From assembly GCA_905250025.1 (NCBI GenBank), contig CAJNOJ010000022.1, forward strand, positions 1,707 to 65,706: a stretch of DNA of 64,000 nt. The letters are read 5' to 3'. The notes under the pieces were generated by a model that saw nothing but the letters and a program-made list of their open reading frames with translations, was not told the origin of the DNA and searched no databases. A program made the translations under genes and the position numbers. Below, piece by piece: positions 251 through 21,100 of this stretch. This stretch comes from Adineta ricciae (Eukaryota; Rotifera; Eurotatoria; Adinetida; Adinetidae). Numbering within the stretch: the stretch's first letter is position 1; the number at the start of each line of letters is the position of its first letter.

Positions 251-1962
251 CTAGTCTTCTAGCGAATCTTTTTTTTCCTTTCCAATTGCATCACATATAT
301 GTAACATCGACTTTCTTTTTCAGGTTCTCATCATCTGGCCTATCAAGTCGAGTCAAGTCAGTTACTTGTTCAGCCTACCCTTTCATTTGACTCTCAAACA
401 ATACATTTGCTCATTCAGTTTTCACGAACAAGCCGATTCATCATTTCATTCGCTCATACTCTTCAAATGAAACGAACACTCGAATCATGTGCTGTGTCCA
501 GGTGTGTGTGTAGCTCATATACATGTATGGCACATGTCATCAGACAGTCTTTTTGGTTCAACATCGTCCAATAGACAAGAAACAATCGCACAATGAAAGA
601 TTGTCTTGTTTGTCGAAGTTTCATTCATCTTGCATCGTCGTTCATGTGTTAGTTTCGAACAATTCTTCAATTAGCGTCGTCTTTTCCTCAACACTTCTAT
701 CATCTATTATCAATCGTTTGTTTCATTCGTGTATTTTCTCTTCGTAGTCATCGACTTGTTCGATTTGACTTCTTACTTCTTTTTCGATGACATCAAATTC
801 TAGAAGATATCGAATCATTTGTTTTCTCCCTACGCTTAGTAATAGATGTCATTCAACGAAATATTCTTATTTGTTCTTCATCAAACAAATCAACAATAGA
901 ATCAAATCAAAATTTCATTCACTCGCTTATTTTGCTGTATTCGATTTTCCATTCCATTCTTTTTGTTCATATTTTCGATCGATTGGAATAACTGCCATCA
1001 TTGCGTATGTTCCTCGTCGTTATACAAATGACTTCGTCTAATCTCAGAATTTCATGCATACGAAGATCAGGTGTATGTTCCGTGTTTCATTTTTCAATGT
1101 GTTTTCTCATGTCATTTCTTCATCGTGCACATCGAAGATCTATTCCATGCGTGACATGTTTTCTTTTTCAGCCATTTGAAGACGTTTGGCCTTTTCTCAC
1201 TCTCGTGATCATATTATCTAGCGGTGCATTTCAGTTCAAGATCTACTTTGTTTTCGACTTCTACATTGCAAATCGATCCAAACAAATATTCATCATGCAC
1301 GTGTGTCTTTTGATTTTATTCAAGTTTTCTAGATCGGATCGAAGGAGAAATAAGATCTTGAACGTTTATTCCTTTAGATTGCCATCGTTTATGCCACGCA
1401 TGTATGTTCATCGTTGTGTTGTATTTTCACGTGTTTCACAGATCAGCTGGGCATCGTTGTCATTTTGCTTGATGTTCATTCATATGTACACGTAGCTAAC
1501 AGAATTGATTTCTTTTCAGATGTGCAATATTTGTGTCGATTTAAATGAATGAGGAGGCTTTGTCATACTCATTCATGTACACGCTATTTCGCTGCTCATA
1601 TGAGAGCAAGTTTCGTTGGAAAAGAAGAGACAGTATTTTTAACGCCAAAATCGATCTTGACGATGTCGAAATTGTATAGGATGACGATGGGAAGTTTCAT
1701 TCTTCGTGCCGAATCATCGAATTGTTGTCGAATGAAGTACCAATTGATGTACACAAGATCGAATGAAAATGCCGTTGAAACATGATAGTTCAGTTGAAAA
1801 TCAAACGTATATGACTATTAGTTTGCTGCTTTCATATTCTATCAATACGGGTTGATTGAATCGAAAGTGCCAGGTTAACAAACACATACCATACGTATAT
1901 GAATGTAGAGAATGAGAATTTGTAACTAGTTTACTATTGACTTGCTCTTCTCATCGTCATCG

Positions 1963-16333: not shown

Positions 16334-17157
16334 ATGGCAGACGTGCGTGCGACGCTTGTAAGTTTGTTTCTCCCGATATTGATTGATTCGGAAATGGACC
16401 AATAGTACCTGCTAGAGAGTCATAGTAGCTGATGGTATATTTACGTGCAATTGGTTTTCAATTCAATCTAATCACCCGTCTGTTCCAGTCAAATATGTCA
16501 GATATTTTATTATTTCGTTCGAAAAATCCAAGTATTCAATCGAAATTTATCGGTCAATTAGAACGCGAATTCGCCAATCTTGCTCGATTGCTATATACAA
16601 CTGATGTATCTAGTTCTGTGCTTGAACAAGAATGTTTACCGTATATTGCCAAAAACATTCTCTTTAAACATCCTCTGCAAGAAGGAAATGGCAAAGAACG
16701 CTATAAGTTTATAATGAAAGGCTTTCACAACATGTTTCATTGTATTTTTGATAAATCTCAATTAAATGTGAAGCTGAACGATGATGGCAAGACCGGTCGA
16801 TGTATTATTGACAGTGTCGTTAATTTAAAACAATTTTCGTGGCTCTACACATATCCATTGCGTTCCATCATCATTTTTGAATTTCGTCTATTGAATACTC
16901 AAAGTATTGAAGAACCACAATTCGAAATCTTTCGGCACGAAGAAATGTGGTTGGTTGCATTTGTTTTCAATTTAGAAGTAGTCTTCTCTGTATTACATTT
17001 TAGGTCACTTGCTGATTTAATTGATGCCATACCTGCCATTGGATGGTTTTATAAAAATATCTTTCGTCAGGGCTGTCGTCATTTGTCCATAGGAGTTTAC
17101 ACTTTAAGTTGTTATATTCATGATAGATTCGTACAATCGAGAAAGAAAAAGCAATAA
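16334..17157 (+). CDS. SnoaL/NTF2-like fold protein, function unknown
   Basis: I prefer a three-exon model. Exon 16334-16357 (MADVRATL) joins through a gtaagt donor and a 'tgttccag' acceptor to 16489-16949, then a 54-nt intron (16950-17003) leads to the last exon. An alternative start at 16432 reads through intron 1 and would give an amphipathic N terminus, MVYLRAIGFQFNLITRLFQS. The body has the alternating helix/strand pattern of NTF2-like domains. Near the end, 'EEMWSLADLIDAIPAIGW' and 'FYKNIFRQGC' resemble the tail of uncharacterised eukaryotic SnoaL-like proteins; that resemblance is from memory and only moderate. It has the same orientation as the next gene and its stop lies 62 nt before that gene's start, so it may be the first cistron of the run. 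No catalytic function can be assigned. Confidence 0.55.
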
Positions 17158-17219: not shown

Positions 17220-18792
17220 ATGAATAATGTAGACGAGGTCGGTTGTTCTTCACATATCATCGTTTTGAAAACTTGCTGTTGCTTTTTGAAATAGTTTCCA
17301 TCGTGTTTCTATTGTGCAGGATATTACACTCGATGTTTCGGCGATCCAATCTGTCGAATTTGTCATGCATTTATCTATCCATATGAAATTGATCAACAAC
17401 AAGAGCCCAATGTTTGTGAAGATGTATGATTATGAATTATTTTCAATTGGAAAAATGTATCGATTGCATTTATAGAAAGGTGAAGCAGATGATTCGGGAA
17501 ACGAAGATACTGATGATGGATATGCATGTGCATCCGGTTCGAGTAGATCGACTAAAAAGTCTTTAGCGACGTCAGTGACAACAACCAATACTGATTCTTC
17601 TGCGCAAGCAACAACATCAAATACTTCTGTCGTGTCAGCAGCATCGAATAATCGACGAAATGATTTATTAAACGAGCTGTTACTTGAATTAACAGCAGCA
17701 AATGTGATATGGAATGATCATACGTCTTATTTGAGTCAGTTGCCACCAGAAGTGATGCTGACAATAATGAAATGCATGGATGATTTGAGTATATATGCAT
17801 TAGCTAAAGCTTCGAATCGCTGGAAACAGTTAGTTGACTCCACGGTTGATTGGAGACAATTTATTCGAACGCGTTGGCCACTTTTCCCGCTGTCGGATGA
17901 TGATGATCAAAAGACGAATCTCAGCCGAATCTATGATCAATTGTAAGGATGATGTTACTTTCCAAGGAGAAAATAGCAACATTACTTTGTTTTAGAATCC
18001 GGAGTTCGAGCTGTTTTATATGTTTAAATGATACTGGAATTCGAGTAAATATGAAACAAATCAGGAAGGAATGAATTTTCCCGTATACTGGATTTCTGTG
18101 TTTAGTTTGAAAGCAACGGACAAATGCAGCCAACATTGTGGCGACACCGGCGATTACAAAGTGAAATCCGTGCTCTAAGAGTATGTCTTAAATTGAATTC
18201 TTCTTTTGAAAACAAGAGGTGATTATCCAATCTAGGACGATCCACCGGATGGGATTCGTGCAGAACCATTAGACTCATCTTGTTGTCATTGGCATGCTTC
18301 CATTTGGGGTCCTAGCGCATCACCTTATGAAGGTGAGTCCATCCTTTGAAATAAACGATCGTTTGAAATCAAAGCTCTTCGTTTCTTCCTAAGGTGGTGT
18401 TTTCTATTTATATTTACATATTCCACAATCGTAAGTATTTCTCTCGGTACTATGATATATAGGATGTAACACAAAACGAGTTTTATCCTAGTTATCCAAT
18501 GATTCCTCCTGTTGTACGATTTATTACAAAAATTTTTCATCCAAACATAAATATTCATGGTGATATTGGTTTAGATTCGTTTGGTTCCAATTGGAGTCTA
18601 GCTCTAACCATATCGAAAGTCTTAATATCCGTTCAATCTTTGCTGAGCGATCCTTACGCACATATCTGTATGAATCGACAAGCCGCAGATTTATATACGA
18701 ATAATCGTGAGCAATACGAGCAAAAAGCGCGTCAATGGACATGGGCATATGCAATGCACGACTATATCAATGGGGACGAAATAGAGATCTAG
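17220..18792 (+). CDS. F-box/E2-fold fusion lacking the catalytic cysteine
   Basis: One spliced reading frame joins four parts. First is a short Cys-rich module, 'RCFGDPICRICHAFIYPYE', that could bind zinc. Second is a Ser/Thr-rich acidic linker. Third is an F-box, 'LSQLPPEVMLTIMKCMDD' followed by SIYALAKASNRW. Fourth, after another Cys pair (CFICLND), is a full ubiquitin-conjugating (UBC) domain from RRLQSEIRALRDDPPDGIRA to the end. The E2 core is clear: 'WHASIWGPSASPYEGG', 'YPMIPPVVRFITKIFHPNIN', 'WSLALTISKVLISVQSLLSD'. The residue that should be the thioester cysteine, about eight after the HPN motif, is Gly (GDIGLD, codon GGT), so the domain should be catalytically dead like UEV/COP10-type variants. 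The F-box suggests an SCF partner. At least six short introns keep frame. The first exon (17220-17241) is the least certain part. Confidence 0.8.
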
Positions 18793-18897: not shown

Positions 18898-21100
18898 ATG
18901 TCTCATAATCTGTCAGATGCAGGTCGTTTCCTACGCGGACTGGTTCAAGTTAGTCGACAAATAGCTAATGAAGCATCTCGTTCAGGTGATCTTCGTCACC
19001 GACCGTCTGCTGTGCTTGAACCATTTGTTGGTCTTATATCGACTGGCTTAACACGATTGGGAAGTGTTAATGTTACGAATGCTTTATCTAAAACAGCATG
19101 GAAATCGAGTGTACTCGTTCGACAAACTGGTATTGCAGCAAGCAATGCCATTCGAGCGTCGCCAGTCTCTTCATCAATATCGGTACCGTCTGCAACTCAA
19201 ATCCCTGAAGATGTGATTCCGATCCCTCCACATGCTAAAATTCAATCTTCTGCAGTTATAGCAACCACTTCACCGCCATCTGAGATCATTCTACCGGCAA
19301 CGAATGACTTTGTTTCCCATAAGATGTCAATTCCTACTTATTCGGAGAGAGATGTATCATCAGCGAAACCATCGACCACATTAGCAAAAGATAAAATCGC
19401 TATTCCGTCGCAACCTAAACTTGATCATATCGCTGAAACGAAACCGCCGACAGTTGCACCATCTATAGCAACGAAGAAACCAATTCCTATTTCGTATACT
19501 TCAATTGATAAACCTACTGAGCCATTGGCACTGAAAGTCGAACCAACTTTTTTCACGCCTTCTACAGAGAATGAGTCATCCACACCATTAACATTAGAAG
19601 AAAATCAACCCCAAATTGCGGTTCCACCATCACCCACAAATACTGAAGCTCAAGCACGTGCTGTACCAACTACACGAATTGGTCGATTGGCAAGCTTTGG
19701 TTCGTTGGCTGCCGGTCTCGGCGTTGGCGCTCTAGGTTCAATGGTTCGTCGTTCGGTTGGACTTGAACCGACATCTGCATCACAAGGTTCACTTTCTCCA
19801 TATTTGTCGAAAGCAAATGCCGAACGCATTGTTGACACTTTATGTAAAGTACGTGGGGCTGCACTGAAATTAGGCCAAATGATTAGTATTCAAGGTACAT
19901 AGTGGACAATATCCTCTTTTTACTGTCTCTTTCATGTTCTTTTGCTTTTGTTACAGATAATTTTCTTGTCCAAGATGATATCCAAAAGATTTTTGAACGA
20001 GTTCGTCAGAAAGCTGATTTTATGCCTGAATGGCAAATGAATGAGGTAATGACGAACGATTTTGGTGCTAATTGGCGTGAAAATTTCGAAGAATTTCAAG
20101 ACCGACCTTTTGCTGCTGCCAGGTGAAAGATACATATTCTTCTGTCTTTCTAAATATCATTCTTACTTTTTACTCGCCTTTTAGTATCGGTCAAGTACAT
20201 TATGGCGTTTTGAAAAATAGTAAACAGCGCGTTGCTGTCAAAATTCAATATCCTGGTGTTGGAAAATCGATTGAAAGTGATATTAACAATTTGATAACAT
20301 TACTCAATTTTTGGAATATTCTACCTCGTGGTTTATATATCGAGAGTGTAATCAACGTAGCAAAACGCGAATTGAATTGGGAGGTCGATTATATTCGTGA
20401 AGCAGAATGGGGACGCCGATTTAAAAATTGGCTGATTAACAATCCTATGTTTTATATTCCAGACATAGTCGATAATTTATCATCGAAAAGTGTTTTAACA
20501 ACAACGTTTTTCGATGGAATTACTCTAGATAATGCTGTCAATGAAGACCAAGCTGTACGTGATCGTATTGGAACAGCAATCTTGGAATTATGTCTGCTAG
20601 AATTGTTCAAGTTCAAAGCGATGCAAACCGATCCAAATTGGTCAAATTTCCTATTCAATAAATCCACAAAAACCATTGGTCTCATTGATTTTGGAGCATC
20701 ACGAGACTTCAATCCGAGTTTCATTGATAACTACATAAAAATCATTCGTGCTTCTGCTGACAATGATCGTGAAGCTGTTAAACAATTATCCATTAAGGGT
20801 GGTTTTCTTACGGGTTACGAAACGCGTGAAATGACGGAAGCACATGTCACTGCTGTTATGATTTTAGGTGAAGGTTTTCGTCAAGATGATGCATTTGATT
20901 TTGGTTCACAAAATACAACGCACAATATTCATAAACTAATTCCAACTATGTTAAAACATCGTTTAACACCGCCACCAGAAGATTCTTATTCGCTACATAG
21001 AAAAATGTCCGGTGCATTTTTACTTTGCTCAAGATTACGCTCTCGGGTTTATTGTAAACCACTGTTCGAACGTATATGGAAAGAGTATAATGCGTCATAA
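18898..21100 (+). CDS. COQ8: COQ8 (ADCK3/4-type) atypical kinase for ubiquinone biosynthesis
   Basis: COQ8 proteins are mitochondrial UbiB-family ATPases that support assembly of the CoQ-synthesis complex. Three exons are seen, with introns at about 19895-19957 and 20122-20184. The N-terminal third (about residues 80-260) is Pro/Ser/Thr-rich, poorly conserved and probably disordered. The KxGQ motif is in '[15 protein letters not shown]', the Ala-rich loop in '[13 protein letters not shown]', the ATP lysine in VAVKIQYPG, and the catalytic and metal-binding segment in '[12 protein letters not shown]' and '[12 protein letters not shown]'. All are diagnostic of COQ8A/B rather than other ADCK proteins. 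One gene matches the single COQ8 of non-vertebrates. It sits directly upstream of COQ2, which supports a shared role. Confidence 0.93.

Follow-up and report, generated by a model that had tools for sequence, protein, structure and literature searches.

Gene model and neighbourhood

Within the window, meaning the whole 64,000-nucleotide stretch of Adineta ricciae DNA that was analysed, a predicted gene occupies positions 17220-18792 of the plus strand. This span, proposed in an earlier note on the same DNA, is correct, and the spliced open reading frame encodes 390 amino acids with no internal stop codons. Splicing was predicted from reading frame, splice signals and homology, giving a model with eight exons; its seven introns measure 52-61 bp and every one has GT-AG borders. 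Exon 1 (17220-17237) supplies the start codon and the peptide MNNVDE; it is short, and confidence in the model is lowest here. A C4 zinc finger is encoded by exon 2 (17295-17423), while exon 3 (17476-17942) encodes a Ser/Thr/Ala-rich linker and the F-box. Exon 4 (17996-18044) contributes a linker carrying Cys211 and Cys214, and exon 5 (18106-18180) more linker sequence followed by the beginning of the UBC domain, which continues through exon 6 (18236-18332) and exon 7 (18394-18430) into exon 8 (18492-18792), where the HPN motif, Gly317 and the stop codon are found. An ungapped alignment to UBE2D2 spans the last three introns and so supports those three junctions; the exon 3/4 and 4/5 junctions were placed by frame and splice signals alone. 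For the last intron, an acceptor ending at 18462 (32-bp intron) was rejected because it causes a frameshift, and an acceptor whose last base is 18491 gives a 61-bp intron and makes the E2 alignment ungapped again.

The gene is closely flanked by other reading frames. An upstream ORF on the plus strand (16429-17157) ends 62 bases before the start codon, and an open frame begins at 18898, 105 bases past the stop codon; neither gave a match in Pfam. Following the latter frame, a Pfam match to the ABC1 atypical kinase family (E = 1.2e-28) was obtained for a stretch at approximately 20186-20500, and the frame and this stretch probably form one COQ8-type gene. Polypyrimidine-AG sites lie upstream of both the start of the gene at 17220 and the start of the 18898 frame. 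It is possible that the region is a tight gene cluster resolved by trans-splicing.

The genome contains the rotifer spliced leader. The spliced-leader consensus for Rotifera has been published as GGCTTATTACAACTTACCAAGAG, and a 20-base pattern, TTATTACAACTTACCAAGAG, is part of that consensus (PMC3795323). Searching the 130 Mb genome with this 20-base part gave 47 matches at no more than two mismatches, 41 of them exact, compared to one match for the reversed control. No exact match in the genome was obtained for the published 23-base leader, whose 5' end is GGC; at the one locus that was read (L031), TTGC precedes TTATT. The 41 exact copies are found on contigs C2, C6, C8, C43, C77, C79, C99 and C146, often in divergent pairs about 156 bases apart.

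Domain composition of the predicted protein

The earlier note had placed a Cys-rich module, an F-box and a complete UBC fold on one predicted polypeptide, and this is upheld by the gene model and Pfam, the Cys-rich part being N-terminal and the domains standing in the order zinc finger, F-box, UBC. In the N-terminal finger, Cys10, Cys13, Cys26 and Cys29 have exactly the spacing CX2CX12CX2C and make up a putative zinc site. The F-box (residues 135-176; PF00646, E = 1.1e-7) scored 31.9 bits against a cut-off of 20.5, and the UBC domain (residues 237-373; UQ_con, PF00179, E = 1.3e-41) covers profile positions 1-139 of 140. Both matches exceed the Pfam cut-offs, and chance can therefore be set aside as their source. 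Trp165 and Trp175 lie inside the Pfam F-box match and Trp128 and Trp183 within eight residues of it, the next Trp being residue 233. Comparison of exon 3 with the PDB gave weak matches (E = 0.011-0.17), four out of five of which are F-box proteins by name. Structure predictions made from single exons were poor, with a mean pLDDT of 51.8 for exon 3 and 46.0 for exon 8.

A glycine at the E2 catalytic site

The E2 half of the protein matched 307 distinct PDB chains, and the best 60 of these were examined; among those 60, the top solved relatives belong to UBE2D (UbcH5). Compared with an engineered UBE2D2 chain, 72 of the 144 aligned residues are identical and there are no gaps. Within this 144-column alignment, Gly317 (codon GGT, 18568-18570, plus strand) sits on the UBE2D catalytic Cys. 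This confirms the earlier assignment of the Gly to the thioester position, and the HPN motif is likewise intact as described. The mark of an active ubiquitin-conjugating E2, a catalytic Cys after HPN, is absent, with Gly317 standing instead. The Cys in HICMNRQ had been put about 29 residues downstream and called the only other Cys of this half: it is residue 350, which is 33 residues past Gly317, and it is indeed the sole Cys of the last exon, but Cys262 and Cys263 also fall in the E2 domain.

Further differences from UBE2D are seen outside the catalytic position. Phe62 and Pro95, which we take to be RING contacts, are replaced by Met and Leu respectively, and Asn114 and Asp117, presumably near the active site with Asp117 facing it, are replaced by Tyr and Ile. 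The residues at UBE2D Asp87 and Ser108 are retained. At position 22 of UBE2D2 the window protein has Arg, as does the engineered chain used in the comparison; wild-type UBE2D2 has Ser at this position, and the Ser22-to-Arg change has been used for blocking backside ubiquitin binding. From these residues, it appears that the E2 half has probably long been freed from catalysis, and that its contact with ubiquitin is probably not the usual backside one. The changed surfaces would narrow the area in which a chain-binding site should be sought.

Relatives of the protein within the genome

Searches of the genome with the zinc finger (exon 2) and the F-box (exon 3) found no second match for either. 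The E2 half has many relatives, and the whole protein gives at least 70 matches in the genome. We counted the residue in the catalytic column in a search of 48 of 62 loci, omitting 14 (four from the window region, four spliced-leader loci and six, L003-L008, that overlap later loci). The 58 matches with an entry in this column comprise 43 with Cys, three with Gly and 12 with another letter or a gap. Several of the 12 look like alignment ends at introns, while one, L043, has Lys and may be a true non-Cys E2. Two of the three Gly entries were taken as misalignments, as the first column of the alignment falls there in L050 and a Cys lies two columns earlier in L054, leaving L009 as the only real Gly among them. 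Loci L003-L008 have Cys at the catalytic position in all six cases which, together with the 43 Cys against one real Gly, indicates that Gly is rare at the catalytic site in this genome.

Locus L009 (bases 1060-1776, minus strand; G000:C23:686559-687275) holds an intact E2 of the UBE2D type whose catalytic residue is Gly. Its complete ORF has 148 residues (Pfam E = 6e-50) and encodes no F-box, and the counterpart in the corresponding position on contig C9 (L010, G000:C9) has Cys. From gene models based on splice signals and frame, the differences between the two copies number 53 in 447 exon bases, 13 in 270 intron bases and 6 in 124 upstream bases, with a dN of 0.12 and a dS of 0.16. Exon divergence exceeds intron divergence, which may reflect gene conversion or rapid change of the protein. 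The Gly of L009 may be an assembly error.

Probable identification as Morgue and alternative readings

Drosophila Morgue is described as having an N-terminal C4 finger of the form CX2CX12CX2C, a central F-box whose conserved Trp residues typically number five, and a C-terminal UEV in which Gly replaces the active-site Cys (PMC3787007). The window protein has in common with it the finger spacing, the F-box, the C-terminal E2 variant and the Gly at the catalytic Cys. It differs in belonging to another phylum and in its numbering, the Gly being residue 317 of 390 here and residue 421 in the fly. Older taxonomy included the rotifers in Platyzoa. The fly account states that Morgue is conserved across Ecdysozoa, Lophotrochozoa and Platyzoa, and that Gly at the active site is found in no UEV except Morgue; it also describes MMS2 and TSG101 as UEV proteins that have an E2 fold without the catalytic Cys and bind ubiquitin non-covalently (PMC3787007). 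The window protein resembles MMS2 and TSG101 in having this fold without the Cys but, unlike them, its E2 half matches mostly UBE2D and related active E2s among the best 60 of the 307 PDB chains.

Judged against the published description of the family rather than by direct sequence comparison, the gene is very probably the Morgue orthologue of a rotifer, itself probably a bdelloid, and the best reading of its product is a non-catalytic, ubiquitin-binding F-box protein of a known family. The novelty implied in the earlier note is accordingly unsupported, as the F-box/E2 architecture and the Cys-to-Gly change are published hallmarks of Morgue (PMC3787007). The open-access papers searched gave nothing that joins Morgue, rotifer and ubiquitin, and a rotifer Morgue may already be published outside them; in the titles and abstract openings of that literature, no further F-box/E2 protein with Gly was found.

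Other readings of the locus were weighed against this identification. An adjacent F-box gene and an inactive E2 gene might have been wrongly joined in the model, and it is true that the unspliced exon 3 frame runs into a stop at 17944-17946, within the donor site, and that splicing from exon 3 through exons 4 and 5 was drawn from frame and splice signals only. However, the joining introns of 53 and 61 bp are GT-AG with matching phases, like the other five, and the joined order is that published for Morgue (PMC3787007), which makes a false join highly unlikely. We consider it just as improbable that the F-box/E2 fusion arose independently in rotifers and is merely Morgue-like: the likeness was drawn from a published description and not from a sequence alignment, but an independent origin needs a coincidence in which three domains, their order, the C4 spacing and the Cys-to-Gly change all came out alike.

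Two further alternatives concern the catalytic position. The E2 could still be catalytic through Cys350, which aligns with UBE2D Pro118, adjoining Asp117, and may be closer to the active site than the earlier note assumed. Against this, Tyr and Ile occupy the columns of UBE2D Asn114 and Asp117, and we regard retained catalysis as extremely unlikely. That Gly317 is a sequencing or assembly error is hardly credible, since Gly at this place is the published hallmark of Morgue, whose other features the protein also has.

Proposed role

For the rotifer Morgue, we envisage that the F-box would dock SKP1 and thereby a CUL1 (SCF) ligase, while ubiquitin chains would be bound by both the finger and the pseudo-E2 domain, with no thioester being formed. 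The protein would then be an SCF subunit that binds chains and guides or stabilises them on a client. By analogy with the fly, this whole mechanism, combining SCF docking with chain binding without a thioester, is perhaps somewhat likelier to hold than to fail. For Drosophila Morgue, association with both SkpA and K48-linked polyubiquitin is reported, and fly pull-downs show SkpA binding to be F-box-dependent (PMC3787007). We infer that the rotifer protein would share both associations. The earlier note's idea of a pseudo-E2, here joined to an SCF adaptor, that keeps ubiquitin or SCF in place fits what is published of fly Morgue (PMC3787007) and is to that extent supported. For its further option, a hold on a partner E2, the analysis gave no evidence in either direction. 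The abstract of the fly paper states that over-expression phenotypes were unaltered by F-box loss or by changes to the Gly, while a passage of its results reports some attenuation of lethality with every domain deletion (PMC3787007). On these observations, the SCF role is unsettled even in the fly.

The 148-residue E2 of locus L009 raises the separate question of whether Cys-to-Gly pseudo-E2s arose more than once, besides Morgue, which we think unlikely on present data. Provided that it is real and functional, this E2 would make a second pseudo-E2 of the Gly type, contrary to the statement in the fly paper that such a Gly occurs in Morgue only (PMC3787007). With the window gene, the Morgue family gains a well-formed rotifer copy, and the altered surface residues of its E2 half suggest that this half is no longer suited to RING ligases or to the usual backside binding of ubiquitin.
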